Below the pieces are notes generated by a model. The model made no database searches, had not been told where the DNA came from, and was given only the letters and a program-made list of their open reading frames with translations. From an uncultured Eubacteriales bacterium (lineage in GTDB: Bacteria; Bacillota; Clostridia; Christensenellales; Aristaeellaceae): a stretch of 44,781 bases of DNA. The position numbers were made by a program, and so were the translations under genes. Of the stretch, positions 2,488 to 43,394 are shown in pieces. Positions within the stretch are counted from its first letter, which is position 1, and the number at the start of each line of letters is the position of its first letter. The stretch lies in the NCBI GenBank assembly GCA_902790495.1, contig CADASK010000033.1, positions 1 through 44,781 on the forward strand, read 5' to 3'.

Positions 2488-3705
2488 TTACTTTTCTTCC
2501 ATATATTTGATCATCGCCGCTGCGGCGGTCTTGGCCTCGGCGGCGGCGTCCACCACGGTGTGGGAGCCGTGCACCACGTCGCCGGCGGCGAACACGCCGG
2601 GCACGGTGGTCATGCAGTTCTCGTCCGTCACCAGGAGGCCGCGCTCGTTGGCCTGCAGGCCCTCGGTGGTCAGCAGCAGGCGGTTCTTCGGGGCCTGGCT
2701 CACGGCGAGGATGGTGGCGTCGGCCGGCACCAGCTCCGGCTCGGGCTTGTAGCCGGTGACCTGGTCGTTCTCGTCAAACTCGGCGATCTTGAAGACCGGG
2801 CCCTCCTGGGTGATCTCCTGGATCGCGTAGCCGAAGGCGAACTCCGCGCCGTCCAGCCGGGCGTATTCCATTTCATGCTGGCTGGCCGCGATGCGCTTGG
2901 AGCGGGCGTAGAGCGTCACCTGCTGCGCGCCGTGGCGCAGGGCGGTGCGCGCCACGTCCATGGCCACGTTGCCCATGCCGATGATGGCCACGCGCTCGCC
3001 CAGCTCGTAGGCCGAAGGGTTGGCCAGGTAGCTCACGCCGAAGTGGACATTCGCCAGGCTCTCGCCCTTGATGCCCAGGGTCTTCGGACGCCACACGCCT
3101 GTGCCGATGAACACGGAGAGGTAATTGTCCCGGAAGAGGTCGGAGATGCGCAGGGCCTCGCCGAAGGAGGTGTTCGGGCGGAACTGGATGCCCATCTCCT
3201 CCATCACGCGCTGGTACTTCGCCAGCACGGTCTTGGGCAGGCGGAAATCGGGGATGCCGTAGTAGAGCATGCCGCCGATGTGGTCGTTGTCGTCGAAGAG
3301 GGTGACGTCGTAGCCGGCCTTGGCCAGCTCGATGGCGGCGGTGATGCCGGCGGGGCCCGCGCCGATCACGGCGGTCTTTTTGCCGTTCTTCGGGGCGGTC
3401 TCCACCTTCATGCGGTCGAGATACGCTTCGGACACAAAGCGCTCAATGTGGTAGAACGTGACCGGGCTGCCCTTGCGCCCCAGCACGCAGTGGCCGGCGC
3501 ACTGGGCCTCGTGGTCGCAGACCACGGAGCACACCGCGGACATGGGGTTGTTCTCAAAGAGCATCCTGCCGGCCTCCATCAGCCGGTTTTCGCGGAAGGC
3601 GAGGATTGCCTTCGGGATGGGGGTATGGATCGGGCAGCCTTCCTGGCACATGGGTTTTTTGCACTGCAGGCACCGGTTGGCCTCGGAGATGATGCGCAGG
3701 GCCAT
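2488..3705 (-). CDS. GltD-like NAD(P)/FAD-dependent oxidoreductase (glutamate synthase small-subunit family)
   Basis: A 405-residue flavoprotein. The N-terminus has two cysteine groups for iron-sulphur clusters (C12, C15, C20, C24 in RCLQCKKPMCQEGCP; C59, C63, C69, C73). Next comes the FAD dinucleotide fold GAGPAG (115-120) and a second NADPH-type fold IIGMGNVAMD, and the C-terminal FAD motif VPGVFAAGDVV. These are the domains of the GltD/NfnB/SudA family, which passes electrons from NAD(P)H. ATG at 3705 is chosen because AAGGAGG lies nine bases upstream; the frame is open further but without a ribosome site. No glutamate synthase large subunit or Nfn partner is in the window, so the electron acceptor is unknown. 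It is divergent from secreted copy 1. Confidence 0.88.
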   Translation of the reverse strand: MALRIISEANRCLQCKKPMCQEGCPIHTPIPKAILAFRENRLMEAGRMLFENNPMSAVCSVVCDHEAQCAGHCVLGRKGSPVTFYHIERFVSEAYLDRMKVETAPKNGKKTAVIGAGPAGITAAIELAKAGYDVTLFDDNDHIGGMLYYGIPDFRLPKTVLAKYQRVMEEMGIQFRPNTSFGEALRISDLFRDNYLSVFIGTGVWRPKTLGIKGESLANVHFGVSYLANPSAYELGERVAIIGMGNVAMDVARTALRHGAQQVTLYARSKRIAASQHEMEYARLDGAEFAFGYAIQEITQEGPVFKIAEFDENDQVTGYKPEPELVPADATILAVSQAPKNRLLLTTEGLQANERGLLVTDENCMTTVPGVFAAGDVVHGSHTVVDAAAEAKTAAAAMIKYMEEK

Positions 3706-3897
3706 GGAAACGCCTCCTTCTTGGTGTTCGGTGGGTATTTCGACAGGCAGGGGCGGTTTTCCTTCCATTTCTATAGGGATGCGGCGCGATTTGTTTTCCG
3801 GCTCGAATTCAGCCGCTCCGGGACAAATCCAGCGCAAAATCCGGAAAAAGGCGTCTGTGCAAGCGATGTGTTAACGAATTGTAACAGAATATTCATA

Positions 3898-3945
3898 TTC
3901 ACAATCTATTCACATATTGACTACAATCTGTTCACGAGCTATAAT
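3898..3945 (+). promoter_or_regulatory. Promoter of secreted copy 1 with four 11-bp-spaced hexamers (Pho-box-like)
   Basis: Hexamers TTCACA (3898), TTCACA (3909), ACTACA (3920) and TTCACG (3931) repeat at exactly 11 bp. TTGACT (3917-3922), 17-base spacer, TATAAT (3940-3945). The array covers the -35 and stops three bases before the -10. Repeats at 11-bp phasing are bound head-to-tail by PhoP/PhoB-type regulators. Confidence 0.75.
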
Positions 3946-4003
3946 GGAACCAGCCGATAGCAGATCGGCTAACCGGAAACCTACCGGAAAAGGAGAGATT
4001 ACG

Positions 4004-5554
4004 ATGAAGAAGAATCTGTCTCGCGTCCTGGCCCTCGCGCTGGTTCTGGCCAGCCTGCTGAGCCTGACCGTCGGCGCCTTCGCCGATGGCACCACGGTCG
4101 TTATCCCCAACAAGATTTCCCGCCTGGAGGCGCAGCTGCCTGAGCGCGAGGCTCAGCCCACCGTGCGCACCAAGACCAAGAACGGCGAAATCATGGTCCG
4201 CGTGAACGGCGATCCCGACACGGTCTATGCCAACTGGCTGGGCTATGGCGAGGAACCCGAAGAGGTCGAGCTGGAGAACGGCCTGGGCTATGTGGAGCTG
4301 GAAGGCCACAAGTATCAGCTGGGCGCCAAGTGGAGCAAGAAGGTTGTCCGCTCCTACTTCGCCTATGATCCCGATGAAGAAGCCTGGGTTCCCGTGAATT
4401 ACAAGGGCACCGTCAAGGTCGGCAACACCGAGATGAAGCTCTATGACTATGACGAGAACGTTGGCGCGAAGGGCATCAACGACATGACCTATGAGAAGCC
4501 CTGGGTGTGGGTGTATGACTACATCAACACCGATACCGCCGAGGAGGGCAAGAAAGTTTCTGATCCCAACGGCGTTGTCGATACCGGCAATGAAGTCATC
4601 GTGGCTGGTCTGCCCAAGCAGCCCAAGGAAGCTGGCTCCAACTCCAACACCAACGGTCTGACCGAAGGCACCATCAAGTACAATGATGGCAAGGATGTTG
4701 TGGATGGCAAGAAGAATGTCGAGTATCTGAACGACGCCATCTTCGATGCCAACGATCTGATGATCGCCAACAACATGTACGCGAACAACCTCCTGACTGG
4801 CAACGAAGCCGAGACTCGCGGCTGGGATTACATGGTCCCCTACTATCAGTTCTATGTCGAGAACACCGGTAAGGACAGCTCCGGCGCTCCCAACCATGCC
4901 TGGATCGTGGAGAAGGGCCCCTGGACTGCCACCTACACCCGCGCTGGCAAGCTGGAGATCGTCGAGAAGGACGAGGAAAACACCGACTACTTCAAGACCG
5001 GTCTGGCCGGCAGCAAGGGCCACGTGATCTGGAATCATCGCAAGACCGACGGCGGCACCCAGTGGTACGTCGCGGCTGTGACCGAGGAGTATGCCGAGGG
5101 CGATATCGCGAAGGCTGAGGCCGTGTACAATGTGAACGGCAAGCTGGTTCGCTACTTCATCACCTATCGCACCGCCGAGGACGAGACCTACAAGATCAAG
5201 TACACCACCGACAACAAGCCCGCCAACGGCTGGTACACCGGTGTGGACTTCGACGGCAACAAGATCACCGCGACCGCCAACAGCCTGAAGACCTGGCGCG
5301 ACGACAAGACCGGCAAGCTGACCAACCAGGTCGAGCTCGACTGGGGTCTGACCGCTCTGAAGGATTGGACCGGTCGAGCTCGACTGGGGTCTGACCGCTC
5401 TGAAGGATTGGACCAATCCTCCGCGTCTGGCCAAGTAATCAGACAAATCACAGGTAAACAGATCCCCGCCGCAAGGCGGGGATTTTTGTGTGTTCCTAAA
5501 GCCTTCCCCCTCTGGGGGAAGGTGTCATCGAGCCATGGGCTCGATGACGGATGA
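4004..5554 (+). CDS. Secreted paralogue family, copy 1 (C-terminus frameshifted by a tandem duplication)
   Basis: I do not recognise this family. The ATG at 4004 follows AAAGGAGAG and opens a Sec signal peptide (Lys-rich start, hydrophobic core, cleavage after AFA at about residue 27). The mature protein has a conserved N-terminal block (to EMKL, nt 4441), a variable centre (4442-4831, rich in N, D, T) and a conserved Trp/Tyr-rich C-terminal block from MVPYYQFY. No LPXTG, SLH, lipobox or enzyme motif is visible, so it is probably released or loosely bound outside the cell. A 43-bp tandem duplication (5329-5414) shifts the frame 14 residues from the end. The product loses NPPRLAK, reads through the terminator stem and ends at 5554 (516 aa against ~460). 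Codon use is strongly biased, suggesting high expression. Confidence 0.8.
   Translation: MKKNLSRVLALALVLASLLSLTVGAFADGTTVVIPNKISRLEAQLPEREAQPTVRTKTKNGEIMVRVNGDPDTVYANWLGYGEEPEEVELENGLGYVELEGHKYQLGAKWSKKVVRSYFAYDPDEEAWVPVNYKGTVKVGNTEMKLYDYDENVGAKGINDMTYEKPWVWVYDYINTDTAEEGKKVSDPNGVVDTGNEVIVAGLPKQPKEAGSNSNTNGLTEGTIKYNDGKDVVDGKKNVEYLNDAIFDANDLMIANNMYANNLLTGNEAETRGWDYMVPYYQFYVENTGKDSSGAPNHAWIVEKGPWTATYTRAGKLEIVEKDEENTDYFKTGLAGSKGHVIWNHRKTDGGTQWYVAAVTEEYAEGDIAKAEAVYNVNGKLVRYFITYRTAEDETYKIKYTTDNKPANGWYTGVDFDGNKITATANSLKTWRDDKTGKLTNQVELDWGLTALKDWTGRARLGSDRSEGLDQSSASGQVIRQITGKQIPAARRGFLCVPKAFPLWGKVSSSHGLDDG
5329..5414 (+). repeat. Perfect 43-bp tandem duplication inside copy 1
   Basis: Bases 5329-5371 and 5372-5414 are identical, beginning GGTCGAGCTCGACTGG and ending GGATTGGACC. 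Since 43 is not a multiple of three, the second copy shifts the frame. Removing one copy restores the family C-terminus, with TAA at 5436-5438. Confidence 0.95.
5462..5486 (+). terminator. Terminator of secreted copy 1
   Basis: ATCCCCGCC-GCAA-GGCGGGGAT followed by TTTTGTG. Nearly the same hairpin follows all six copies. Because of the frameshift, the copy 1 frame is translated through this stem. Confidence 0.85.
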
Positions 5555-5558
5555 GGGC
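5507..5558 (+). repeat. Short intergenic repeat, CCTTCCCCC...GATGAGG type
   Basis: CCTTCCCCC-TCT-GGGGGAAGG hairpin, then ATCGAGCC/GGCTCGAT hairpin, then GACGGATGAGG. The same order is seen at 8894-8953 and 22231-22273 with changed inner stems, so arms co-vary while ends are kept. Confidence 0.75.
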
Positions 5559-5654
5559 ATGAGGCCGTCATGAGTTAAAAAATGACGATTCCATGAACGT
5601 CTTTCCCCAAAACGAATTGTTACAACTGTAAAACGTTTTCAGGCCTGAAAAGCA

Positions 5655-5683
5655 TTGATTTTACCCTGTCGGCTTCCTATAAT
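5655..5683 (+). promoter_or_regulatory. Promoter of secreted copy 2 (without the hexamer array)
   Basis: TTGATT (5655-5660), 17-base spacer, TATAAT (5678-5683). No 11-bp hexamer series is found here, unlike the other five copies, so copy 2 is likely under different control. Confidence 0.75.
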
Positions 5684-5731
5684 ATGAGGTACCGATCCTG
5701 GATCGGATTACAGAGTTAAGGAGAGATTTCT

Positions 5732-7114
5732 ATGAAGAAGAATCTGTCCCGCGTTCTGGCTCTGGCGCTGGTTCTGGCCAGCCTGCTGAGCCTGACCGCC
5801 GGCGCCTTCGCCGATGGCACGAAGGTTGTCATCCCCAACAAGTTCTCCCGTCTGGAGAGCCAGCTGCCTGAGCGCGAAGCTCAGCCCACTGTGCGCACCA
5901 AGACCGAGAAGGGCGAGATCATGGTCCGCGTGGCCGGCGATCCCGACAATGTCTATGCCAACTGGCTGGGCTACGGCGAGGAGAAGGAAGAGGTCAACCT
6001 GGACAACGGTCTGGGCTATGTGGAGCTGGAAGGCCACAAGTACCAGCTGGGCGCCAAGTGGAACAACAAGCAGTACCGCAGCTACTTCGCCTTTGATCCC
6101 GACCTGGAAGAGTGGGTGCCTGTGGAGTACAAGGGCACCGTGAAGGTCGGCAACCGTGAGATGAAGCTGATCGAGGACATGCGCAAGCCCATCGTCGACA
6201 TCCTCGAGGATAAAGCCTGGGCCTGGGTGTATGACTACAAGAACACCGACACCGTCGAGGCTGAGCGCGAGGTTTCCGATCCCGTGAAGCCCACCTCCTA
6301 CGCCGACGGCCTGCTGATCGCCGGTCTGCCCAAGCAGCCCAAGGAAGCCGGTTCCAACGACAACAGCTACGGCCTGACCGAGGGCACCGAGTGGATCTCC
6401 GACAAGGACGTCGACATCAAGAACGGCAAGTACCAGAACGAGTACTGGACCGACGAGCTCTATGATGCCAACGGCCTGCTGATCGCCTCCAACATCTACG
6501 CCACCAACGACAAGGGCGACGCGGCTGAGAAGATCGGCTGGACCTACATGGTTCCCTTCTATCAGTTCTACGAGGAGATCACCGGCCTGGAGAGCAACGG
6601 CGCTCCCAACTATGCCTGGATCGTGGAGAAGGGCCCCTGGACTGCCACCTACACCCGCGCTGGCAAGCTGGTGATCGTCGAGAAGGACGAGGAGAACACC
6701 GACTACTTCAAGACCGGCCTGGCCGGCAATAAGGGCCATGTGACCTGGCAGTTCCGTCAGACCGACGGCGGCACCAAGTGGTATGTGTCCTCCGCCACCG
6801 AGGAGTATGCCGAGGGCGATATCGCCAAGGCTGAGGCTGTGTACAACGTCCGCGGCGAGCTGGTGCGCTATTTCCTGACCTATCGCACCGGTGAGGACGA
6901 GACCTACAAGATCAAGTACACCCCCGACAACAAGCCCGGCTACGGCTGGTACACCGGCGTGGACGCCATCACCGGCGACACCAACAAGGCTGAGACCGCT
7001 TCCTCCAAGAAGTGGGTGGATCAGAAGACCGGCAAGCTGACCGACATGGTCGAGCTGGACTGGGGTCTGACCGCGCTGAAGGATTGGACCAATCCTCCGC
7101 GTCTGGCCAAGTAA
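5732..7114 (+). CDS. Secreted paralogue family, copy 2 (intact, 460 aa)
   Basis: Full-length member of the unrecognised family: signal peptide ending GAFA, conserved N block, variable centre with the DMRKPI...WAWVYDYKNTDT form shared with copy 3, then the conserved block from MVPFYQFY to the family C-terminus DWTNPPRLAK. ATG at 5732 follows AAGGAGAG with normal spacing. Charged Lys/Glu-rich surface, many aromatic residues and absence of cysteine in the mature part suggest an extracellular beta-rich protein; that is inference. It is a monocistronic cassette with its own promoter and terminator. It is the only copy whose promoter lacks the 11-bp hexamer array. Confidence 0.8.
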   Translation: MKKNLSRVLALALVLASLLSLTAGAFADGTKVVIPNKFSRLESQLPEREAQPTVRTKTEKGEIMVRVAGDPDNVYANWLGYGEEKEEVNLDNGLGYVELEGHKYQLGAKWNNKQYRSYFAFDPDLEEWVPVEYKGTVKVGNREMKLIEDMRKPIVDILEDKAWAWVYDYKNTDTVEAEREVSDPVKPTSYADGLLIAGLPKQPKEAGSNDNSYGLTEGTEWISDKDVDIKNGKYQNEYWTDELYDANGLLIASNIYATNDKGDAAEKIGWTYMVPFYQFYEEITGLESNGAPNYAWIVEKGPWTATYTRAGKLVIVEKDEENTDYFKTGLAGNKGHVTWQFRQTDGGTKWYVSSATEEYAEGDIAKAEAVYNVRGELVRYFLTYRTGEDETYKIKYTPDNKPGYGWYTGVDAITGDTNKAETASSKKWVDQKTGKLTDMVELDWGLTALKDWTNPPRLAK

Positions 7115-7131
7115 TCAACCCAACCCATCCT

Positions 7132-7157
7132 ATCCCCGCCACGTGGCGGGGATTTTT
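7132..7157 (+). terminator. Terminator of secreted copy 2
   Basis: ATCCCCGCC-ACGT-GGCGGGGAT followed by TTTTATG, 17 bases after the stop codon. Confidence 0.88.
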
Positions 7158-7162
7158 ATGTG

Positions 7163-7288
7163 CTCTCTCAGTTAGTGCTTACGCACTGCCAGCTCTCCCA
7201 GAGGGAGAGCCAAGATAGACCATTACGGCCCTCTTGGCGGTTCAGCAATGTGAAGCACAGGAGAAAGCCGAAAGGATGAGGGTTTCCT
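7163..7288 (+). repeat. Intergenic repeat with CTCTCCC/GGGAGAG hairpin
   Basis: Contains CAGTTAGTGCTTACGCACTG, then CCAGCTCTCCCAGAGGGAGAG followed by CCAAG, ending near GGATGAGGG. A related block is at 33388-33440 (CCCCTCAGTCA ... CAGCTCCCCTCAAAGGGAG then CCAAG). It fills most of the 380-base gap between copies 2 and 3. No gene is seen in it. Confidence 0.6.
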
Positions 7289-7404
7289 GAAATTTACACA
7301 ATTGACGGAAGCGTGTGCAAAAAACTACGAAAAAAGTCAAGCTGAAAACAACGAATTACGCTGATTTACAAATATGTTTTACGAATTGTAACAGAAGAGC
7401 AACA

Positions 7405-7452
7405 TTCACAGTCTGTTCACATATTGACTACATTCTGTTCACGAGTTATAAT
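7405..7452 (+). promoter_or_regulatory. Promoter of secreted copy 3 with hexamer array
   Basis: TTCACA (7405), TTCACA (7416), ACTACA (7427), TTCACG (7438), all 11 bp apart; TTGACT (7424-7429), 17-base spacer, TATAAT (7447-7452). Same register as copy 1. Confidence 0.75.
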
Positions 7453-7495
7453 ACAGATACCGGTTCAACCGGATTACATCAAAGGAGATACTACC

Positions 7496-8944
7496 ATGAA
7501 GAAGAATCTGTCCCGGATTCTGGCTCTGGCGCTGGTCGTGGCCAGCCTGCTGAGCCTGACCGTTGGCGCCTTTGCTGATGGCACCAAGGTCGTCATCCCC
7601 AACAAGTTCTCCCGCATCGAGGGCCAGCTCCCCGAGCGTGAGGCTGCTCCCACTGTCCGCACCAAGACCAAGAACGGTGAGATCATGGTCCGCGTGAACG
7701 GCGAGGCCGACACGGTCTATGCCAACTGGCTGGGCTATGGCGAGGAGAAGGAAGAGGTTGCTCTGGAGAACGGTCTGGGCTACGTCGAGACCGAGGGCCA
7801 CAAGTATCAGCTGGGCACCAAGTACAGCAAGAAGGTTGTCCGCTCCTACTTCGCCTATGATCCGGAGCTCAAAGAGTGGGTGCCCGTGAAGTACAAGGGC
7901 ACTGTCAAGGTCGGCACCACCGAGATGAAGCTGATCGACGACATGCGCAAGCCCATCAACGACATCGCCTATGATCAGCCCTGGGCGTGGGTGTATGACT
8001 ACAAGAACACCGACACCGTCAAGGCTGAGGACGAGGTCTCCGATCCTGTTGATCCTTCCGACTACGCTGATGGCCTGATCGTGGCTGGCCTGCCCAAGCA
8101 GCCCAAGGAAGCCGGCAGCAACGAGAACACCAACGGCCTGGCCACTGGTGTTGAGAAGATCTCCGACAAGGACATCGACATCAAGGACGGCAAGTATCAG
8201 AACGAGTACTGGACTGATGAGCTCTTTGACGGCAATGGCCTGCTGATCGCCTCCAACATCTATGCCAACAACGACAAGGGCGACACCGGTGTGGAAATCG
8301 GCTGGACCTACATGGTTCCCTTCTATCAGTTCTACGAGCAGAACACCGGCAAGGACAGCTCCGGCGCTCCCAACTATGCCTGGATCGTGGAGAGCGGCGC
8401 CTGGACCAACACCTACACCCGTGCGGGCAAGCTGGTCAAGTCTGTGAAGACTGAGGAGAATACCGACTACTTCAAGACTGGCCTGGCTGGCAACAAGGGC
8501 AAGGTGACCTGGCAGTCCCGCAAGACCGACGGCGGCACCAAGTGGTATGTCTCCTCCGTGGTTGAGGACTATGCCGAGGGCGACATCGCCGAGGCCGTGG
8601 CGTACTACAATGTGAACGGCGCTCTGACCGGCTACGATATCACCTATCGCACCGCCGAGGACGAGACCTACACCATCGCCTATGATCCCTCCAACAAGCC
8701 CATCGCTGGCTCCTACGAGGGCAAGGACTTTGACGGCAACGACATCACCGCTACCGCCAACAGCCTGAAGACCTGGCGCGACGACAAGACCGGCAAGCTG
8801 ACCAACCAGGTCGAGCTCGACTGGGGTCTGACCGCTCTGAAGGATTGGACCACGCAACCCCATCCCCGCCGCAAGGCGGGGATTTTTCTGTGGTTCAGCC
8901 TTCCTCCTCCGGGGGAAGGTGGCATCGAGCCTGGGGCTCGATGA
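7496..8944 (+). CDS. Secreted paralogue family, copy 3 (stop codon lost)
   Basis: Signal peptide, N block and variable centre are of the copy 2 type, and the C-terminal block is intact up to LKDWT. At 8852 the family ending NPPRLAK-stop is missing. The gap between GGATTGGACC and the terminator is only nine bases (ACGCAACCC) instead of about fifty, so the frame runs through the terminator stem and ends at 8944 (482 aa, tail PHPRRKAGIFLWFSLPPPGE and on). ATG at 7496 follows AAAGGAGATACTACC. The last ~90 coding bases are identical to copy 1 (8761-8851 against 5281-5371), pointing to gene conversion. Function unknown. Confidence 0.8.
   Translation: MKKNLSRILALALVVASLLSLTVGAFADGTKVVIPNKFSRIEGQLPEREAAPTVRTKTKNGEIMVRVNGEADTVYANWLGYGEEKEEVALENGLGYVETEGHKYQLGTKYSKKVVRSYFAYDPELKEWVPVKYKGTVKVGTTEMKLIDDMRKPINDIAYDQPWAWVYDYKNTDTVKAEDEVSDPVDPSDYADGLIVAGLPKQPKEAGSNENTNGLATGVEKISDKDIDIKDGKYQNEYWTDELFDGNGLLIASNIYANNDKGDTGVEIGWTYMVPFYQFYEQNTGKDSSGAPNYAWIVESGAWTNTYTRAGKLVKSVKTEENTDYFKTGLAGNKGKVTWQSRKTDGGTKWYVSSVVEDYAEGDIAEAVAYYNVNGALTGYDITYRTAEDETYTIAYDPSNKPIAGSYEGKDFDGNDITATANSLKTWRDDKTGKLTNQVELDWGLTALKDWTTQPHPRRKAGIFLWFSLPPPGEGGIEPGAR
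8862..8888 (+). terminator. Terminator of secreted copy 3, inside the extended frame
   Basis: ATCCCCGCC-GCAA-GGCGGGGAT followed by TTTTCTG. The lost stop codon places this hairpin inside the translated region, where ribosomes could weaken termination. Confidence 0.85.
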
Positions 8945-8953
8945 CGGATGAGG
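8894..8953 (+). repeat. Short intergenic repeat, CCTTCC...GATGAGG type
   Basis: CCTTCCTCCTCCGGGGGAAGG, then GCATCGAGCC/GGCTCGATG hairpin, then ACGGATGAGGG. Same family as 5507-5558 and 22231-22273. It lies partly in the extended frame of copy 3. Confidence 0.75.
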
Positions 8954-9074
8954 GTCAGTGCAGCGCCTGAAGCTGCCGTTTTAGCGCTGCAGATCCTTTC
9001 TTTCATCACAGATCAGACCGATAAGATCCGTTTTGACCCGACCACCCCCAATTATGACACAGAAGAAAATATCC

Positions 9075-9122
9075 GTAACACTATCTTAACATATTGACAA
9101 CAAATTCTTCATGATATATAAT
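9075..9122 (+). promoter_or_regulatory. Promoter of secreted copy 4 with hexamer array
   Basis: GTAACA (9075), TTAACA (9086), ACAACA (9097), TTCATG (9108), 11 bp apart; TTGACA (9094-9099), 17-base spacer, TATAAT (9117-9122). TTAACA is the Bacillus PhoP consensus hexamer. Confidence 0.75.
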
Positions 9123-9168
9123 GGCTCCACCGATCCCTATCGGCGAATGAAAAGAAGGAGAGAGTACC

Positions 9169-10563
9169 ATGAAGAAGAATCTGTCCCGGATTCTGGCTTT
9201 GGCGCTGGTCGTGACCAGCCTGCTGAGCCTGACCGCCGGCGCCTTTGCCGACGGCACCAAGGTCGTCATCCCCAATAGAATCTCCCGCCTGGAGCCCCAG
9301 CTGCCCGAGCGCGAGGCTTCCCCCACCATCCGCACCAAGACCAAGAACGGTGAGATCATGGTCCGCGTGAACGGCGAGGCCGACGCGGTCTATGCCAACT
9401 GGCTGGGCTACGGTGAGAGCAAGGAAGAGGTTGCCCTGGAGAACGGTCTGGGCTATGTGGAGACCGAGGGCCACAAGTACCAGCTGGGCGCCAAGTGGAG
9501 CAACAAGGTCGTCCGCAGCTACTTCGCCTATGATCCCAGCTCCGGCGAGTGGGTGCCCGTGAACTATGAGGGCACCGTGACGGTCGGCAAGACTGAGATG
9601 AAGCTGGTCTCGCCCACCAAGGCCAAGGAGAGCCATGTGCCCGCCGACATGACCTATGGCAACTACTGGGCCTGGGTCAAGGACTACATCAACACCGACA
9701 AGGTGGAAGCCGGCGACGAGGACGAGCTGGCGGACGCTGAGGCTGCCCTGGCGGAAGCCGAGGAGCTCCAGCAGAACATCGTGGCGGCCGGTCTGCCCTC
9801 CCAGCCCAAGGAAGCCGGCGCGAACTCCAACTCCAACGGTCTGACCGCCGCGACCCAGAAGATGTACACCCAGGAGATCGACGGCGTGACCTACCTGGTG
9901 AGCGGCCTGTTCGACGAGAACGGCCTGCTGATTGCTGAGAACAGCTTCGGCGCGGACCTGCAGAAGGGCAATTCCGGCCTGTCCGAGGGCTGGGTCGGCA
10001 TGGTTCCCTTCTATCAGTTCATGGAGCAGAACACCGGCAAGGACAGCTCCGGCGCGCCCAACTACGCCTGGATCGTGGAGAGCGGCTCCTGGACCAACAC
10101 CTACACCCGTGCGGGCAAGCTGGTGAAGGTCGTCAAGAACGAGGAGAACACCGACTACTTCAAGACCGGTCTGGCCGGCAGCACCGGCAAGGTGACCTGG
10201 CAGTTCCGTAAGACGGCCGGCGGCACCACCTGGTATGTGGCCAACGTGGTGGAGAACTATGCCGAGGGCGATATCGCCAAGGCCGAGGCCGATTACAACG
10301 TGAAGGGCGAGCTGGTTCGCTACTACATCACCTATCGCACCAGCGAGAACGAGAACTACGAGATCCAGTATGGCACTGACAACAAGCCCGCCTACGGCTG
10401 GTACGAGGGCAAGGATTTCGAGGGCAACGATATCAAGGCTGAGACCGCTTCCAACAAGAAGTGGGTGGACGTGGCCTCCGGCAAGCTGACCGACATGGTG
10501 GAGCTGGACTGGGGTCTGACCGCCCTGAAGGATTGGAGCAATCCTCCTCGCGCGACCAAGTAA
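9169..10563 (+). CDS. Secreted paralogue family, copy 4 (intact, 464 aa)
   Basis: Full-length member. ATG at 9169 follows GAAGGAGAG. The signal peptide ends GAFA, and the centre is of a second type (TYGNYWAWVKDYINTD followed by an Ala/Glu-rich helix, about residues 183-205) shared with copies 5 and 6. The C-terminal block runs to DWSNPPRATK. The Glu/Ala-rich stretch (ADAEAALAEAEELQQN) looks helical, in contrast to the beta-like flanks. It has its own promoter and terminator. No recognised domain, anchor or catalytic motif was found. An extracellular binding or structural role is a guess from abundance and secretion only. Confidence 0.8.
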   Translation: MKKNLSRILALALVVTSLLSLTAGAFADGTKVVIPNRISRLEPQLPEREASPTIRTKTKNGEIMVRVNGEADAVYANWLGYGESKEEVALENGLGYVETEGHKYQLGAKWSNKVVRSYFAYDPSSGEWVPVNYEGTVTVGKTEMKLVSPTKAKESHVPADMTYGNYWAWVKDYINTDKVEAGDEDELADAEAALAEAEELQQNIVAAGLPSQPKEAGANSNSNGLTAATQKMYTQEIDGVTYLVSGLFDENGLLIAENSFGADLQKGNSGLSEGWVGMVPFYQFMEQNTGKDSSGAPNYAWIVESGSWTNTYTRAGKLVKVVKNEENTDYFKTGLAGSTGKVTWQFRKTAGGTTWYVANVVENYAEGDIAKAEADYNVKGELVRYYITYRTSENENYEIQYGTDNKPAYGWYEGKDFEGNDIKAETASNKKWVDVASGKLTDMVELDWGLTALKDWSNPPRATK

Positions 10564-10580
10564 ACCCGGAAACGCACCAG

Positions 10581-10607
10581 ATCCCCGCCTCACGGCGGGG
10601 ATTTTCC
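10581..10607 (+). terminator. Terminator of secreted copy 4
   Basis: ATCCCCGCC-TCAC-GGCGGGGAT followed by TTTCCT, 17 bases after the stop codon. Confidence 0.87.
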
Positions 10608-10667
10608 TATCTTTTCGGAAGTGAGGAAAAGAAGCCCAGATTGAAATTTTATTACAAATTTTTTTCA

Positions 10668-10715
10668 TTCACAGTCTCTTAACATATTGACAACAGAAAA
10701 TTCATGGGTTATAAT
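10668..10715 (+). promoter_or_regulatory. Promoter of secreted copy 5 with hexamer array
   Basis: TTCACA (10668), TTAACA (10679), ACAACA (10690), TTCATG (10701), 11 bp apart; TTGACA (10687-10692), 17-base spacer, TATAAT (10710-10715). Confidence 0.75.
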
Positions 10716-10759
10716 AACCTCACCGATGAGAAATCGGATACTGAAAAGGAGAGATCACG

Positions 10760-12154
10760 ATGAAGAAGAATCTGTCCCGTCTTCTGGCTCTGGCCCTGGT
10801 CGTCGCCAGCCTGCTGAGCCTGACCGTCGGCGCTTTCGCCGATGGCACCAAGGTCGTTATCCCGAATAAGATTTCCCGCCTGGAAGCGCAGCTGCCTGAG
10901 CGCGAGGCTCAGCCCACCGTGCGCACCAAGACCAAGAACGGCGAAATCATGGTCCGTGTGAACGGCGATCCCGACACGGTCTATGCCAACTGGCTGGGCT
11001 ATGGCGAGGAACCTGAAGAGGTCGAGCTGGAGAACGGCCTGGGCTATGTGGAGCTGGAAGGCCACAAGTACCAGCTGGGCGCCAAGTGGAACAACACGGT
11101 GTACCGCTCCTACTTCGCCTATGATCCCGAGACCGAGGACTGGGTGCCTGTGGATTACAAGGGCACCGTGAAGGTCGGCAACACTGAGATGAAGCTGGTT
11201 CTGCCCACCGGTGAGAAGGACAGCTACGTCCCCGCTGACATGACCTATGGCAACTACTGGGCCTGGATCAAGAACTATGTCAACACCGACACCGTGAAGG
11301 CCGGTGACGACAAGGCTGTCGCCGCTGCCGAGGAAGCCATGGGCGAAGCCACCGAGCTCGTGTCCGGCATCGTCGCCGCGGGCCTGCCCAAGCAGCCCAA
11401 GGAAGCCGGCTCCAACTCCAACAGCTACGGCCAGACCGCCGCGACCGAGTATGTCTACGGCCAGAACATCGGCAAGGCCACCTACATGGTGGACAGCCTG
11501 GTGGACGAGAACGGCCTGGAGATTGCCTCCAACGTCTACGCTGTGGATCAGAAGGGCAACGAAGGCGAGACCATCAACTGGTACGGCATGGTGCCCTACT
11601 ATCAGTTCTATGCTGACATCCACGGCAAGGAGAGCAACGGTGCTCCCAACCACGCCTGGATCGTGGAGAAGGGCCCCTGGACTGCCACCTACACCCGCGC
11701 CGGCAAGCTGGAGATCGTCGAGAAGGTGGAGGAGAACACCGACTACTTCAAGACCGGTCTGGCTGGCAGCAAGGGCGACGTAATCTGGCATCATCGCAAG
11801 ACCGCCGGCGGCACCAAGTGGTACGTCGCGGCTGTGACCGAGGAGTATGCCGAGGGCGACATCGCCAAGGCTGAGGCCGTGTACAATGTGAACGGCGAGC
11901 TGGTGCGCTACTTCATCACCTATCGCACTGGTGAGGACGAGACCTACCGCATCCGTTACACCCCCGCCAACAAGCCCGCCTATGGCAACTATGTGGGCGT
12001 CGACGCCTTCACCGGCGAGACCATCAAGGCCTACACCGCTTCCACCAAGAAGTGGGCCGATTCCAAGACCGGCAAGCTGACCGACACCGTCGAGCTCGAC
12101 TGGGGTCTGACCGCTCTGAAGGATTGGACCAATCCTCCGCGCCTGACCAAGTAA
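10760..12154 (+). CDS. Secreted paralogue family, copy 5 (intact, 464 aa)
   Basis: Full-length member with ATG at 10760 after AAAGGAGAG. The N block is almost the same as in copy 1 (RLEAQLPEREAQPTVRTKTK), while the centre is of the copy 4/6 type (TYGNYWAWIKNYVNTDTVKA, then an Ala/Glu-rich helix). The C-terminal block is closest to copy 6 (FTGETIKAYTAS ... NPPRLTK). So this copy combines segments from different relatives. Signal peptide cleavage is expected after GAFA. Own promoter and terminator. Function unknown; the family has neither a wall anchor nor a transmembrane segment beyond the signal. Confidence 0.8.
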   Translation: MKKNLSRLLALALVVASLLSLTVGAFADGTKVVIPNKISRLEAQLPEREAQPTVRTKTKNGEIMVRVNGDPDTVYANWLGYGEEPEEVELENGLGYVELEGHKYQLGAKWNNTVYRSYFAYDPETEDWVPVDYKGTVKVGNTEMKLVLPTGEKDSYVPADMTYGNYWAWIKNYVNTDTVKAGDDKAVAAAEEAMGEATELVSGIVAAGLPKQPKEAGSNSNSYGQTAATEYVYGQNIGKATYMVDSLVDENGLEIASNVYAVDQKGNEGETINWYGMVPYYQFYADIHGKESNGAPNHAWIVEKGPWTATYTRAGKLEIVEKVEENTDYFKTGLAGSKGDVIWHHRKTAGGTKWYVAAVTEEYAEGDIAKAEAVYNVNGELVRYFITYRTGEDETYRIRYTPANKPAYGNYVGVDAFTGETIKAYTASTKKWADSKTGKLTDTVELDWGLTALKDWTNPPRLTK

Positions 12155-12177
12155 TCAGGTCAACCACAAAAACAAAA

Positions 12178-12203
12178 GTCCCCGCCGCAAGGCGGGGATT
12201 TTC
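12178..12203 (+). terminator. Terminator of secreted copy 5
   Basis: TCCCCGCC-GCAA-GGCGGGGA followed by TTTTCG, about 25 bases after the stop codon. Confidence 0.87.
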
Positions 12204-12240
12204 GTATTGGCATCAATAACCTGCAGGCGAATGGAATGCG

Positions 12241-12435
12241 GCGAAGGGGTGGAGGGGGCTCGGAGCGCCCGGAAAACGCCATGTTATGGCGTTTTCAGCG
12301 GAGAGCGGGCGGCAGCCCCGGACCGATCGCAAAGCCGGAAAACGCCATGTTATGGCGTTTTCAGCGGAGAGCGGGCGGCAGCCCCGGACCGATCGCAAAG
12401 CCCCTGACCCGCGCCCGCAGGCGCGGAACCCCTGC
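12241..12435 (+). repeat. Dispersed modular hairpin repeat R2 with internal 66-bp tandem duplication
   Basis: GCGAAGGGGTGGAGGGGGCT, then a 66-bp unit present twice (12270-12335 and 12336-12401), then CCCGCGCCCGCAGGCGCGGA. Each unit carries the hairpin GAAAACGCCAT-GTT-ATGGCGTTTTC (perfect 11-bp stem) and CGATCGCAAAGC. It separates the secreted array from mutS. No gene in it. Confidence 0.9.
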
Positions 12436-12451
12436 TAAACTCAGAAGGGGA

Positions 12452-17123: not shown

Positions 17124-17140
17124 GACGAAGAGATGGCAGG

Positions 17141-17206
17141 GCGAAGGTTTGCAAAGGGCGATCGCAAAGCCCTTTGCCCGCGCCCGCAGGCGCGGAACCC
17201 CTGCTG
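17141..17206 (+). repeat. Dispersed modular hairpin repeat, copy R3
   Basis: Identical over 66 bases to R1 (209-274): GCAAAGGG/CCCTTTGC hairpin then CCGCGCC/GGCGCGG hairpin. It lies 17 bases after the helicase stop codon. Confidence 0.9.
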
Positions 17207-21979: not shown

Positions 21980-22192
21980 GAGGCGGGCGAAGGTTTCCAA
22001 AGGGCGATCGCAAAGCCCTTTGGTCGCCGCCGAAGGCGGCGAAAGATTCCGCGCCTGCGGGCGCGGGGAGGGGGCTTTGCGATCCTGTCGCTGCCGCTTT
22101 CGCCTCACTGAAAACTCCACACTGTGGAGTTTTCCGGGCGTTCGGTGGAGTTTTCCGGGCGTTCGGCGCCCCCTCCACCCCTTCGCGCGCCG
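21980..22192. repeat. Composite dispersed hairpin repeat R4 (plus- and minus-oriented modules)
   Basis: A forward CAAAGGGCGATCGCAAAGCCCTTTG module, then an inverted CCGCGCCTGCGGGCGCGG module, then GAAAACTCCAC-ACT-GTGGAGTTTTC (11-bp stem), with a partial second copy of GGTGGAGTTTTCCGGGCG. Bases 22086-22130 are identical to 42480-42524. It lies just upstream of mrfA. Confidence 0.88.
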
Positions 22193-33249: not shown

Positions 33250-33375
33250 GGCGAAGGGGTGCAGGGGGCTCGGAGCGTCCGGAAAACGCCATGTTATGGA
33301 GTTTTCAGCGGAGAGCGGGCGGCAGCCCCGGGCCGATCGCAAAGCCCCCTGCCCGCGCTCGCAGGCGTGGAACCC
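33250..33375 (+). repeat. Dispersed modular hairpin repeat, copy R5
   Basis: GCGAAGGGGTGCAGGGGGCT, then GGAAAACGCCAT-GTT-ATGGAGTTTTC (one mismatch to the perfect stem in R2), CCGATCGCAAAGCCCCCTGC and CCGCGCTCGCAGGCGTGG. One copy of the unit that is doubled in R2. Confidence 0.87.
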
Positions 33376-33387
33376 TTATCGATTGCG

Positions 33388-33499: not shown

Positions 33500-33563
33500 G
33501 CGGGCGAAGGTTTCCAAAGGGCGATCGCAAAGCCCTTTGGCCGCGCCCGCAGGCGCGGAACCC
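33500..33563 (+). repeat. Dispersed modular hairpin repeat, copy R6
   Basis: CGGGCGAAGG, CCAAAGGG-CGATCGCAAAG-CCCTTTGG, then CCGCGCCCGCAGGCGCGG. It ends 21 bases from the 3' end of tRNA-Glu. Confidence 0.88.
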
Positions 33564-33584
33564 CCAAAAAGACAAAAGAAAAAG

Positions 33585-34034: not shown

Positions 34035-35261
34035 ATGACCTACATTCATCGGACGCTGGAGCCGGTTATTCAGGCCATCAATCGGGACTATGGATGCCTG
34101 CTGCTCATCGGCCCCAGGCAGGTGGGCAAGACCACCATGCTGGAGCACCTCATGGCGGGAAGCAAGCGAACCAAGGTTACGCTGGACGATACGGAAAACC
34201 GCCGGCTGGCCAGAAGTGATCCGGATCTGTTTTTGCAGCTGCACCCGGCGCCTGTGCTGATCGACGAGGTGCAGTACGCCCCCGAGCTCTTCTCAGCCAT
34301 CAAGATCCGGATAGACAACGGAGCGCCAGCCGGCTCCTATTGGCTGACCGGTTCCCAGGCGTTTCAGCTGATGGATCTGGCGCAGGAGTCCCTGGCGGGC
34401 CGGGCGGCCATCGTGCATATGTCAGCCCTCTCCCAGGCGGAGATGGAAGGCGATACGGCGGCGGAACCCTTCGAGCTGCATGCGGATGCGCTGAAACGCC
34501 GGACGGAAAACCGCCGTCCCGCCTCGGTCGCCGAGGTCTATGAGCGCATCTGGCGCGGCTCCATGCCGGGCTACAGAAGCGGCCGGTATACGGACCGCGA
34601 CGTGTTCTACAGTTCTTATGTCCAGACATACATCAACCGGGACGTCGTGGACATGATCTCAGGGGTCGACAGGCTGCTGTTTACGGATTTCGTGCGCGCC
34701 GCGGCGTGCCGTGTCGGTCAGCTGCTGAACGCGCACGACATCGCCCAGGATGTGGGTGTTTCGGATGACACGGCCCGCAGATGGCTGCTGGTGCTGGAAA
34801 AGTCGGAGATCATCTTCTATCTGCGTCCATACGCCAATAACCTGCTCAAGCGCACCCTCAAGACACCCAAGATGTATTTCTTCGACACAGGCCTTGTGGC
34901 CTACCTCACACGCTATTCCAGCCCCGAGATCCTGATGAACGGCGCGATCAACGGCGCGATCCTGGAAAATTATGCCGTCGCCGAGATCAGGAAGAGCTGG
35001 CTGAATCACGCCAAAGAGAGTCTCTGCTGGTATTATCGGGACAAGGACAGCAACGAGATCGACCTGGTGATGGAGGCCGATGGCAAGCTCCATCCCCTGG
35101 AAATCAAAAAGAGCGTCAATCCGCCGACACAGATCGCGTCCACCTTCACCATCCTCGACAAGGGCTCTGTCCCGCGCGGGGAAGGCGCGATCCTCTGCCT
35201 GCGCGACGCACTCTCCGCCGTGGATCGGCAAACCTGGATCGTGCCGATCTGGATGATCTAA
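34035..35261 (+). CDS. AAA-type ATPase with DUF4143 C-terminal domain
   Basis: A 408-residue protein: Walker A GPRQVGKT (26-33), Walker B PVLIDEVQYAPELF, sensor WLTGSQAF, then a winged-helix region (LLNAHDIAQDVGVSDDTARR) and the DUF4143 domain with FFDTGLVAYL and the nuclease-like WYYRDKDSNEIDLVMEADGK ... EIKKS. The D/E...E-x-K arrangement at the end recalls a PD-(D/E)XK fold. Such proteins are widespread in gut Clostridia; their function is not established, and defence or mobile-element links have been suggested. ATG at 34035 follows GAGGTGAGAG. Its stop lies 37 bases before the topoisomerase gene, so some read-through is possible. Confidence 0.88.
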   Translation: MTYIHRTLEPVIQAINRDYGCLLLIGPRQVGKTTMLEHLMAGSKRTKVTLDDTENRRLARSDPDLFLQLHPAPVLIDEVQYAPELFSAIKIRIDNGAPAGSYWLTGSQAFQLMDLAQESLAGRAAIVHMSALSQAEMEGDTAAEPFELHADALKRRTENRRPASVAEVYERIWRGSMPGYRSGRYTDRDVFYSSYVQTYINRDVVDMISGVDRLLFTDFVRAAACRVGQLLNAHDIAQDVGVSDDTARRWLLVLEKSEIIFYLRPYANNLLKRTLKTPKMYFFDTGLVAYLTRYSSPEILMNGAINGAILENYAVAEIRKSWLNHAKESLCWYYRDKDSNEIDLVMEADGKLHPLEIKKSVNPPTQIASTFTILDKGSVPRGEGAILCLRDALSAVDRQTWIVPIWMI

Positions 35262-39484: not shown

Positions 39485-40624
39485 ATGAAAGAACTGAGCC
39501 GTCGTGAATTCCTGAAGGTTTCCGGTGCCAGCATGCTGGCCGCTGCCGCCGCCACCACCGGCGTCGCCCTGACCGGCCGCGCCGTGGCTGAGACCGTCGA
39601 CCCCAACGAGGGTGAGAAGGTCGAGATCAAGAACAACTTCGAGCCCACCGTGCCCGGCGTCGCCGGCGTGCTGGACCGCAAGAACCTGCCCACCAAGGAC
39701 TGGGACGATCCCGACATCAAGCTGAAGGTTCGCTGGAGCGGTGTCAACTTCTACGAGTTCGTGCTGCCCAACGGCAACACCATCATCATGGATCCCTACT
39801 GGGACGATCCCAACGGCACCCACAACGAGTACAAGTACACCCCCACCGACCTGCCCGGCGGCAAGTGGGTGCACGGCGGCGAATACTGCGTGCTGACCCA
39901 TGGCCATGCCGACCACACCGGCGAGCTCCATTCCGTGCTGGAAGAGTATCCGCTGTGCCAGGTGATCTGCCCCCAGGGCACCCTGCCCTCCGTCGTGTGG
40001 CGTGAGAAGATCAACTATGCCGCCCACTACATCAGCGAAGCCGGCGCCCATGACCTGTTCCAGCTCCACGGCTGCACCCTGGAGACCATCCGCTCCAACC
40101 ACAACTGCTCCAAGCGCCCCGTGTCCGACACCCTGGACGTGGAGAAGTACAGCAATCCCGACGGCACGCCCAACTTCTACAAGCTGTATGCGTGGATCTA
40201 CGAGCGCGAGATCATGAACATGAAGATCACCACCGACGATGGCTTCACCGTTCTGCTCTGGAACTCTGAGATGCAGGGTGACGGCTACGGCTTCGAGACC
40301 CGTCCCTACTTCTATCAGAACAGCAACCCCGACCTGTTCATGTATCAGGTGGCCGGCGCTTCCTTCGACTATGACCGCCGCAACCCCAACTGCAAGCACA
40401 TGGGTGAATGGATCGCCTCCGTGAAGGCCAAGACCGCTCTGCCCGAGCATCAGCAGCACTTCGCCTACTCCGAGCTGGACGCCATGGGCGACAAGTTCGC
40501 TGACATCTGCAACGCCAAGGGCGTGGGCACTTCCTTCCTGACCCCCGAGACCGGCATCTGGTACGGCTACACCAAGGATGCGGACGGCAACGTGGGCGTC
40601 TACCTGCTGGGCAAGCACGACTGA
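39485..40624 (+). CDS. Tat-exported metallo-beta-lactamase-fold hydrolase
   Basis: A 379-residue protein. The N-terminus KELSRREFLKVSGASML is a canonical twin-arginine signal (S-R-R-x-F-L-K) followed by an Ala-rich core, with cleavage near AVAE (~residue 36). The mature part holds the metal site THGHADHTG (H-x-H-x-D-H) and further His such as SNHNC and EHQQHF, so a two-metal MBL fold is probable; the closest known shape is the UlaG-like lactonase group. Tat export fits a cofactor loaded in the cytoplasm. ATG at 39485 follows AAAGGAGG. The divergent LysR gene is its likely regulator. The substrate is unknown. Confidence 0.87.
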   Translation: MKELSRREFLKVSGASMLAAAAATTGVALTGRAVAETVDPNEGEKVEIKNNFEPTVPGVAGVLDRKNLPTKDWDDPDIKLKVRWSGVNFYEFVLPNGNTIIMDPYWDDPNGTHNEYKYTPTDLPGGKWVHGGEYCVLTHGHADHTGELHSVLEEYPLCQVICPQGTLPSVVWREKINYAAHYISEAGAHDLFQLHGCTLETIRSNHNCSKRPVSDTLDVEKYSNPDGTPNFYKLYAWIYEREIMNMKITTDDGFTVLLWNSEMQGDGYGFETRPYFYQNSNPDLFMYQVAGASFDYDRRNPNCKHMGEWIASVKAKTALPEHQQHFAYSELDAMGDKFADICNAKGVGTSFLTPETGIWYGYTKDADGNVGVYLLGKHD

Positions 40625-40814: not shown

Positions 40815-41162
40815 TGGAGATGAGGGGAGTCGAACCCCTGTCCGAAGGCTCAAAAGCCAGATTTTCTCCGAGCGCAGTCTGCGTTTTGGAATTCCCTCAG
40901 CCGGCCGCCCGCAGACGGGCTGTCGGCCTCAGTAGCTTCATGTTACGGACGTGCGGCAAAGCTTAGGCACGCTCGTTCCCCGCGAAAATGGCGCCGGGTA
41001 CCGGACACGCGGGCAATCCGGGCCAGCGTCGCCGCCTAATTAGGCCGCGAAAGCGTAACTGTTGTTGTCAGTTCACTTTAATTTTCCCCGTTGTTGCGCG
41101 GTACAGGGTCCGCGGCTCGCTTATCCAGCCCCCAATACCCCCGTCGAAACCGGATCATCCCC
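40815..41162 (-). ncRNA. ssrA: Transfer-messenger RNA (tmRNA)
   Basis: On the minus strand the 5' end GGGGATG (41162-41156) pairs with the 3' CATCTCC (40822-40816), with 5' GGTTTCGACGGGGGT and 3' T arm AGGGG-TTCGACT-CCCCT. The reading frame inside (41069-41040) encodes DNNSYAFAA and ends TAA. The resume codon is most likely GAC, judged by the upstream bases. It rescues stalled ribosomes and tags their products for proteolysis. CCA is not encoded. smpB is directly upstream on the same strand. Confidence 0.96.
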
Positions 41163-41222
41163 GCGAAGGGGTGGAGGGGGCGATCGCAAAGCCCCCTCCC
41201 CGCGCCCGCAGGCGCGGAATCC
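41163..41222 (+). repeat. Dispersed modular hairpin repeat, copy R8
   Basis: GCGAAGGGGTGGAGGGGG-CGATCGCAAAG-CCCCCTCC, then CCGCGCCCGCAGGCGCGGAA. It fills the whole gap between the smpB stop (41225) and the mature 5' end of ssrA (41162). Confidence 0.9.
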
Positions 41223-41224
41223 TG

Positions 41225-41692
41225 TCACTTGTTGTTTTGCCTCAGCGCCCGGCGGATATCCCTGTCCGCGTCGCGCTTGGCCTCGGAGTCGCGCTTGTCG
41301 TGCGCCTGCTTGCCCTTGCACAGGCCAAGCTGAAGCTTCATGCGTCCCTCCTTGAGATAGATCTCCAGCGGGATCAGCGTGTAGCCCTGGCGGGCCACCA
41401 GGCCGTCCAGCTTGCGGATCTCGCTCTTGTGCAGCAGCAGGCGCTTGGGGCGCAGGGGATCACGGTTGTAGTAGCTGCCCTGGTCGTAGGGGCTGATGTG
41501 CATCCCCTCCACAAAGATCTCGCCGCCGCGCACCGCCGCCCAGCTCTCCTTGAGGCTGACGCGGCCCTGGCGCATGGACTTGACCTCCGTGCCGAACAGC
41601 TCCAGGCCGCACTCGTAGCGCTCCTCCACGAAGTAATCGTGAAAGGCCTTGCGGTTCTGCGCCACCGGCTTGATGCCGCGCTGATGGGGCAT
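41225..41692 (-). CDS. smpB: SsrA-binding protein SmpB
   Basis: A 155-residue SmpB: NRKAFHDYFVEERYECGLEL, FGTEVKSMRQGRVSLKESWA, then EGMHISPY and YYNRDPLRPKRLLLHK, LIPLEIYLKEGRMKLQLGLC, and the basic tail KGKQAHDKRDSEAKRDADRD ending RALRQNNK. It binds the tRNA-like part of tmRNA and its tail probes the empty mRNA channel of stalled ribosomes. ATG at 41692 follows GGAGGTGAAGGGCC. It and ssrA form one transcription unit with only repeat R8 between. Confidence 0.97.
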   Translation of the reverse strand: MPHQRGIKPVAQNRKAFHDYFVEERYECGLELFGTEVKSMRQGRVSLKESWAAVRGGEIFVEGMHISPYDQGSYYNRDPLRPKRLLLHKSEIRKLDGLVARQGYTLIPLEIYLKEGRMKLQLGLCKGKQAHDKRDSEAKRDADRDIRRALRQNNK

Positions 41693-42371: not shown

Positions 42372-42480
42372 GACCATCCTCGCATCGCATTTAGAAGACA
42401 TGAGGCATTTCATACGAATGCTGGCGCATGGTACCAAAAGCGTGTGCGGGGGGTCCGGGGGACACACGTCGCAACGTGAT

Positions 42481-42602
42481 GTCGCTGCCGCTTTCGCCTC
42501 ACTGAAAACTCCACACTGTGGAGTCTAAGATAGCAGAGATTCCGCGCCTGCGGGCGCGGGCAGGGGGCTTTGCGATCGCCCCCTGCACCCCTTCGCCCGC
42601 CG
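42481..42602 (-). repeat. Dispersed modular hairpin repeat, copy R9 (inverted)
   Basis: GTCGCTGCCGCTTTCGCCTC and GAAAACTCCAC-ACT-GTGGAGTC, then the inverted CCGCGCCTGCGGGCGCGG and GGGGG-CTTTGCGATCG-CCCCC modules. Bases 42480-42524 are identical to 22086-22130 in R4. Confidence 0.88.
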
Positions 42603-43301: not shown

Positions 43302-43349
43302 TTCACAGACTGTTCACATCTTGACAACATTTTATTCACCGATTATACT
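43302..43349 (+). promoter_or_regulatory. Promoter of secreted copy 6 with hexamer array
   Basis: TTCACA (43302), TTCACA (43313), ACAACA (43324), TTCACC (43335), 11 bp apart; TTGACA (43321-43326), 17-base spacer, TATACT (43344-43349). Control signals look intact although the gene is broken. Confidence 0.75.
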
Positions 43350-43394
43350 TAAATTACTGACCACGAGGTCGGAAAAAGAAAAGGAGAGAGTACC

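Follow-up and report, generated by a model that had tools for sequence, protein, structure and literature searches.

What do five related genes encode that follow one another head-to-tail, without other genes between them, in an uncultured Clostridia bacterium, and what shapes such an array? We analysed the whole of contig CADASK010000033.1 (C33; 44,781 bp, here called the window), part of a genome of 2.47 Mb in 78 contigs that is 94.5% complete. The array appears to encode a lineage-restricted, strongly expressed, exported and beta-rich protein family, and the likeliest explanation, though still a tentative one, is that its members are abundant proteins of an outer coat or are loosely held at the cell surface. 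Abundance, location and function are inferred.

An array of exported proteins

The five genes occupy 4004-12154 on the + strand (starts at 4004, 5732, 7496, 9169 and 10760), and a sixth copy starts at 43395. Identity to copy 5 is 67-74% for copies 1-4, and 77% and 91% for the two parts of copy 6. The copies and their signals are laid out as follows.

3917-3945, + strand: copy 1 promoter, sigma-A-type, TTGACT-17-TATAAT (promoter scan)
3952-3970, + strand: copy 1 leader with 5' hairpin
4004-5554, + strand: copy 1, signal-peptide gene, 516 amino acids (aa); frame shifted near the 3' end by a 43-bp duplication, so that the open reading frame (ORF) passes the terminator
5329-5414, + strand: perfect 43-bp tandem duplication within copy 1 (possible assembly artefact)
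5460-5485, + strand: copy 1 terminator (terminator scan)
5655-5683, + strand: copy 2 promoter, TTGATT-17-TATAAT (promoter scan)
5692-5706, + strand: copy 2 leader with 5' hairpin
5732-7114, + strand: copy 2, intact, 460 aa
7132-7153, + strand: copy 2 terminator (terminator scan)
7424-7452, + strand: copy 3 promoter, TTGACT-17-TATAAT (promoter scan)
7460-7472, + strand: copy 3 leader with 5' hairpin
7496-8944, + strand: copy 3, 482 aa; the last codons with the conserved C-terminal tail and the stop are gone, and the ORF passes its own terminator
8862-8883, + strand: copy 3 terminator (terminator scan)
9094-9122, + strand: copy 4 promoter, TTGACA-17-TATAAT (promoter scan)
9130-9143, + strand: copy 4 leader with 5' hairpin
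9169-10563, + strand: copy 4, intact, 464 aa
10579-10604, + strand: copy 4 terminator (terminator scan)
10687-10715, + strand: copy 5 promoter, TTGACA-17-TATAAT (promoter scan)
10723-10737, + strand: copy 5 leader with 5' hairpin
10760-12154, + strand: copy 5, intact, 464 aa; its mature part was used for the long structure model
12180-12203, + strand: copy 5 terminator-like stem with a short T run, unscored by the scan on this strand
43321-43349, + strand: copy 6 promoter, TTGACA-17-TATACT
43357-43372, + strand: copy 6 leader with 5' hairpin
43395-44204, + strand: copy 6 N-terminal part, 269 aa, frame broken
44185-44637, + strand: copy 6 C-terminal part in a different frame, about 37 codons being absent between the parts

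An earlier note, made from the letters of this DNA, had described an array with its signals and conservation at this place, and the five genes and the sixth, their signal peptides, promoters and identities bear it out. Its picture of six copies was incomplete: damage or mis-assembly affects copies 1, 3 and 6, and there are more members here and in related genera. Directly past the array lies a perfect 66-bp tandem duplication (12269-12402); a stretch at 33250-33346 copies it at 96%. Since the oddities of copies 1, 3 and 6 and of the duplications sit on repeats, assembly error is as likely a cause as real damage.

Every product opens with a signal peptide, at whose end the sequence shows a site of the A-x-A type. 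In mature form the window products are acidic (isoelectric point 4.7-4.9), free of cysteine (five checked) and 48-51 kDa in size. In the six window products there is no lipobox (no L..C within the first 35 residues), no LPxTG-like motif and no later hydrophobic segment (at most 13 hydrophobic residues in any 18 past residue 40), and for sortase the genome gave only a match below the cut-off. SLH domains were absent from the Pfam matches of four window proteins (E<=1), from 22 family members (E<=0.1) and from the genome (E<=0.001), as was CW_binding_2 from the members scanned and from the genome at E<=0.001.

Searches with the four window proteins found no match above the curated cut-offs of Pfam and NCBIfam. 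Among the 22 members of a wider alignment, compared with Pfam, NCBIfam and PHROGs at E<=0.1, no family drew matches from more than a single member, the best E being 0.006, and a PDB search with a profile of the C domain returned a single match, at E 0.29. Inhibitor_I42 (chagasin) matched two of the four window proteins below threshold (E 0.037 and 0.65; 10.8 and 14.7 bits, where the cut-off is 27.2). A phmmer search with copy 5 gave E 2.7e-21 to a designed six-fold SAKe protein; because the best stretch covered 40 residues and six stretches were counted, this score is probably summed over the repeated units of the target. We rejected a Kelch protein, as neither the four window proteins nor the 22 members had a Pfam Kelch match and natural KEAP1 chains reached E 0.09 or worse. 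A description of the family was not found in open-licence papers. The earlier note's view of a secreted and unrecognised family is thus supported: its members carry signal peptides, nothing credible was found in Pfam, NCBIfam, PHROGs or PDB sequences, and the Pfam profile comparison of the four window proteins gave no confident match to any described family.

Predicted fold

The model of the core has a predicted local distance difference test score of 90.0 and a predicted template-modelling score of 0.85, and structure comparison of the predicted fold returned immunoglobulin (Ig)-like matches and one beta-meander match. The constant parts are predicted to form a beta-meander and an Ig-like domain, into which the variable centre would be inserted. 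Among the closest known systems is a Bacteroides fragilis protein of unknown function, BF3112 (PDB 3msw). A whole-protein structural relative was sought and rejected: the best Foldseek match of the long model, an Rhs-repeat protein, is not a match despite its E of 5.8e-4, given a template-modelling score of 0.09 and a root-mean-square deviation of 25.5.

Distribution and a conserved tail

At least 10 family genes are present in the genome itself, where further members lie on contigs C38 (full length, 47% identical), C18 and C34 (both short, with N and C parts only) and C35. A profile free of the signal peptide found the family in 26 of 308 genomes of the bacterial family, in 5 of 50 genera, and in 10 of the 12 genomes of the same genus, this genome included. 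The full profile matched all 12, but many of these matches span the signal peptide alone, and we therefore relied on the signal-free count. In samples of the order (396 genomes) and of the class (391 genomes, C-domain profile) only this genome matched, both samples containing further genomes of the same bacterial family without a match.

Grouping on one strand recurs in two other genera. In genus g7 the groups comprise 5 genes in G017, 2 in G280 and 4 in G279, the last with one ORF of the opposite strand among them; in genus g54 they comprise 3 genes in G181 and 2 in G183. In two g54 members (L097 6120-7736, 538 aa; L098 8102-9706, 534 aa) the N part was matched twice, a possible internal duplication. 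A phage or plasmid origin was considered and dropped, as tblastn with copy 5 found no match in phage and plasmid collections; in a weak pattern search of viral contigs with a single short peptide, none of the 28 matches encodes a relative.

Most members read from genera g1 and g7 end in a tail of the form F/W-x-(S/N/P)-P-R plus a few residues, which is a new observation here. Of the 40 family ORFs, a count that takes in fragments and broken copies, 26 close with a loose form of it; it is absent from one g1 member (L099 16924-17973) and from those read in g54, g32 and g10. The motif closes 26 of the 161 signal-peptide-like ORFs (100 aa or longer) that the loci read contain. Of these 26, 25 belong to the family and 1 does not, where three of the 25 family rows had been labelled 'other' by the script (loci outside its family list) and some genes are counted in two loci. 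Amid the g7 family genes, a non-family signal-peptide ORF (L095 9201-10445, - strand) is Thr/Pro-rich near its end, and its terminus, YWSPRGD, resembles the tail.

Promoters and a leader hairpin

All six window copies have promoters that agree with the consensus at 10-12 of 12 positions, always with a spacing of 17 nt, and the stretch 3700-12300 holds 9 promoter-like sites against 2.9 (standard deviation 1.7) in shuffles. A G/C hairpin terminator was scored after copies 1-4; copy 5 has the same G/C stem with a shorter T run, and in copy 6 the stem is present and the T run replaced. Terminator-like sites as a class are not enriched in the same stretch (11 against 8.7, standard deviation 3.3, in shuffles), so that the terminator evidence is the common G/C stem and not a count of sites, and the terminators are not decisive.

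Past each promoter, near the expected start of transcription (deduced from the promoter position), all six window copies carry a stem of 5-7 pairs, which is extended to 10-11 pairs in the leaders of the C38 gene and of G005b, a family gene of the related genome G005. The stem is present in 10 of 10 genes of the type of copies 1-6 and C38 in genomes G000 and G005 (G005c and G005e possibly being one gene), and is lacking in C35 and in the short paralogues C18, C34 and G005d. Across nine genomes we examined 35 family genes; a promoter could be recognised in 33, of which 19 have the stem. Where a strong promoter is followed by a gene, the stem occurs in 15 of 26 family leaders and in 4 of the 22 remaining ones (Fisher p 0.008); of these four, the one on L018 is a family gene truncated by the contig end. 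Among controls, 296 of 5000 composition-shuffled leaders and 1031 of 5000 random window positions had such a stem.

In genus g7 a different sequence, CCAAC-NNN-GTTGG, stands at the same place. Across 12 chosen leaders both sides change in 3 of 5 pairs, and the 12 such cells were matched by 0 of 500 shuffles, while the pair count was matched by 138 of 500 and the pair-type count by 500 of 500; within the 8 leaders of the same genus alone, both sides change in 2 of 5 pairs. This hairpin at the expected mRNA 5' end, with its equally paired replacement in another genus, resembles the leaders of stabilised mRNAs and appears to be new. Stem-loops at the 5' end that stabilise mRNA are already known, as the excerpted parts of two sources describe (PMC3997798, PMC7509114). 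Like the leader stabilisers of ompA, papA and aprE in these excerpts, the present one is a short stem-loop at or adjoining the expected mRNA 5' end, before the Shine-Dalgarno region (PMC3997798, PMC7509114); unlike them, it has only 5-7 pairs in the window genes, and its place at the mRNA 5' end is predicted from the promoter.

The codon adaptation index (CAI) of the family copies is 0.65-0.75, against 0.66-0.77 for rpsL, rpsG and fusA, which are the reference set itself, and it is comparably high elsewhere, with 0.74 for gyrA and 0.78 for another window gene. The ORF at 39485-40624 has the top value (0.78) among the window genes measured. Codon bias is thus high but not special and is not decisive for abundance, and we dropped it as a proof. 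The earlier note's claim of very abundant proteins accordingly gains indirect support from the promoters and the covarying 5' hairpin and loses that of the codons; the extracellular role that it proposed stays an inference.

Mosaic genes and selection

The closest partner of a copy changes along the genes, as in a recombining tandem array. In a test of the pairwise homoplasy index type with the five array copies (194 informative sites), incompatibility between nearby sites was 0.456 against a permutation mean of 0.572, and 0 of 1000 permutations were as low; the same result was obtained with 87 third-position sites and when one gene of G005 was added. Copies 1 and 5 are 95-97% identical in part of the N block and 90-93% identical from nt 877 to about 1210, whereas the end of copy 1 is 87% like copy 3 and just 71% like copy 5. 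Copies 2 and 3, in turn, are 76-90% alike in the centre and 61-70% at the end. Two pieces in G005, G005a and G005e, share an identical stretch of 504 nt that reaches to the stop codon; they diverge immediately beyond it, and their centres are 52% (nt) and 35% (aa) alike.

The centres can also be followed across species. At the protein level, that of G005a is nearest to copies 4, 5 and 6 (61, 57 and 56%, against 45-50% for copies 1-3), and that of G005e to copies 2 and 3 (52 and 53%, against 31-38%), with the caveat that G005e begins at a contig edge and its first 55 nt are the end of the contig of G005c. In DNA the preference of G005e is kept (61-62% against 49-53%) and that of G005a barely (68-69% against 66-67% for copies 2-3). 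As the centre types are common to both genomes while the flanks are alike, the types look older than the split of the species and the flanks look homogenised within each genome.

The ratio of non-synonymous to synonymous substitution rates (dN/dS) was below 1 in 12 of 12 pairs; in 10 of them the value of the centre exceeded that of the N part (in the two G005e pairs it was lower). Positive selection was not found in these 12 pairs.

Genomic context and repeats

The order mutS, DEAD-box helicase, RNase H-like gene and MrfA/Hrq1-like helicase is the same in the window and in G005. In the latter, mutS has one family gene, G005a, next to it; copy 6 and G005c adjoin the same small gene (window 42647-43165). 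With shared neighbours and a single gene in G005, the array looks like an expansion at a common site. Upstream of copy 1 lie an oxidoreductase gene and an ABC-ATPase gene, which in G005 adjoin another family gene, G005b. Judging from gene order, the changed neighbours are a rearrangement with family genes at its junctions, and family genes may be points of rearrangement. The same oxidoreductase gene adjoins a family gene in both genomes (L016 8373-10001; window 2488-4004), the family types being different. A reciprocal crossover was rejected as the cause of the changed neighbours: the gene that precedes G005a, which we take to be ttcA-like, lies here on contig C44 (84% identical), where the stretch read holds no family gene.

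The window also holds an AAA_14/DUF4143 ATPase gene (34035-35261), a 45-nt repeat that is identical at 22086-22130 and 42480-42524, spaced 20.4 kb, and an imperfect 23/46-nt tandem repeat (2272-2384) with the ABC-type ATPase gene (1093-1806) on one side and the oxidoreductase gene (2488-3837) on the other. An interspersed repeat of about 67 nt, with a palindrome-like G/C core by eye, has seven copies at least 70% identical to the reference, two of them identical:

208-274: repeat copy
12371-12437: repeat copy
17140-17206: repeat copy
21986-22052: repeat copy
33315-33381: repeat copy
33503-33569: repeat copy
41162-41228: repeat copy

Discussion

With no anchor of the tested kinds, no SLH or CW_binding_2 match and no sortase above the cut-off in the genome, we judged a surface coat most likely. 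In such a coat, the constant scaffold with its F/W..PR tail would serve export, assembly or attachment, and the inserted centre would be the part that faces outside agents, such as phages, predators, a host or a substrate. Tandem duplication and gene conversion would keep the scaffold uniform and reshuffle the centres, in a mode like that of recombining S-layer gene arrays, yet with an own promoter on every copy. A more far-reaching version, that this is a new kind of surface coat in which an Ig-like scaffold with a large hypervariable insert is held outside the cell by its tail and not by SLH, CW_binding_2, lipid or sortase anchors, all copies are expressed, and old inserts shared across species are reshuffled by gene conversion, strikes us as unlikely at present.

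The same lack of anchor motifs is what one would expect if the proteins were freely released and bound glycans, substrate, peptides or proteases outside the cell, with the centre setting ligand specificity and no coat being formed. Ig-like folds are common among binders and inhibitors, and the chagasin matches of two window proteins point the same way, but these fall short of the cut-off, and the neighbours shared with G005 are mostly housekeeping genes (mutS, helicases, an RNase H-like gene) that suggest no ligand; we regard released binders as possible, if rather doubtful. An array could also be a plain amplification that raises the output of one exoprotein while a little-constrained centre drifts. 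The promoter and 5' hairpin on every window copy would suit this, as would the dN/dS values, which are those of relaxed constraint; dosage alone, however, needs no centre types that recur in another species between similar flanks, and reading frames stay open through the centres of the intact copies, which makes mere dosage an improbable account. That chimeric assembly at repeats of this metagenome-assembled genome produced much of the pattern is very improbable: the perfect 43-bp and 66-bp duplications, a lost gene end and an internal loss all lie in or beside repeats, contigs of the related genome G005 break inside family genes, and the 504-nt identity in G005 would fit, but matching segments of the window array are not identical but show differences at 3-24% of their sites, so that most exchanges are old, copies 2, 4 and 5 are intact, and tandem groups exist in independent genomes and in other genera.

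Returning to the surface coat, the sap array of Campylobacter fetus uses one invertible promoter, whereas each copy here has its own. Our searches revealed no sequence relation between the two, and no sapCDEF-like cluster was recognised among the 20 window ORFs scanned, although an ABC-type ATPase gene lies upstream of the array. What the systems share, according to the excerpted parts of the source, are several copies of an exported surface-protein gene at one locus, with recombinants between types and with repeats that make assembly difficult, as well as types that its authors judge to be older than the split of host-associated lineages (PMC4943207). With S-layer and wall proteins that carry SLH or CW_binding_2 the family shares export; S-layer genes have strong promoters and stabilised mRNAs, as stated in the excerpted parts of a review (PMC8056022). 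It differs from them in that neither domain was matched in the members scanned or, at E<=0.001, in the genome.

If confirmed, these results would provide an uncultured lineage with a likely dominant exported protein family, built of a constant scaffold and an exchangeable insert. They would also point to a C-terminal tail that may be new as a sorting or assembly element, and to a simple leader that favours strong and stable expression, in an array that perhaps makes several variants at once, unlike antigenic variation, which presents them one at a time.

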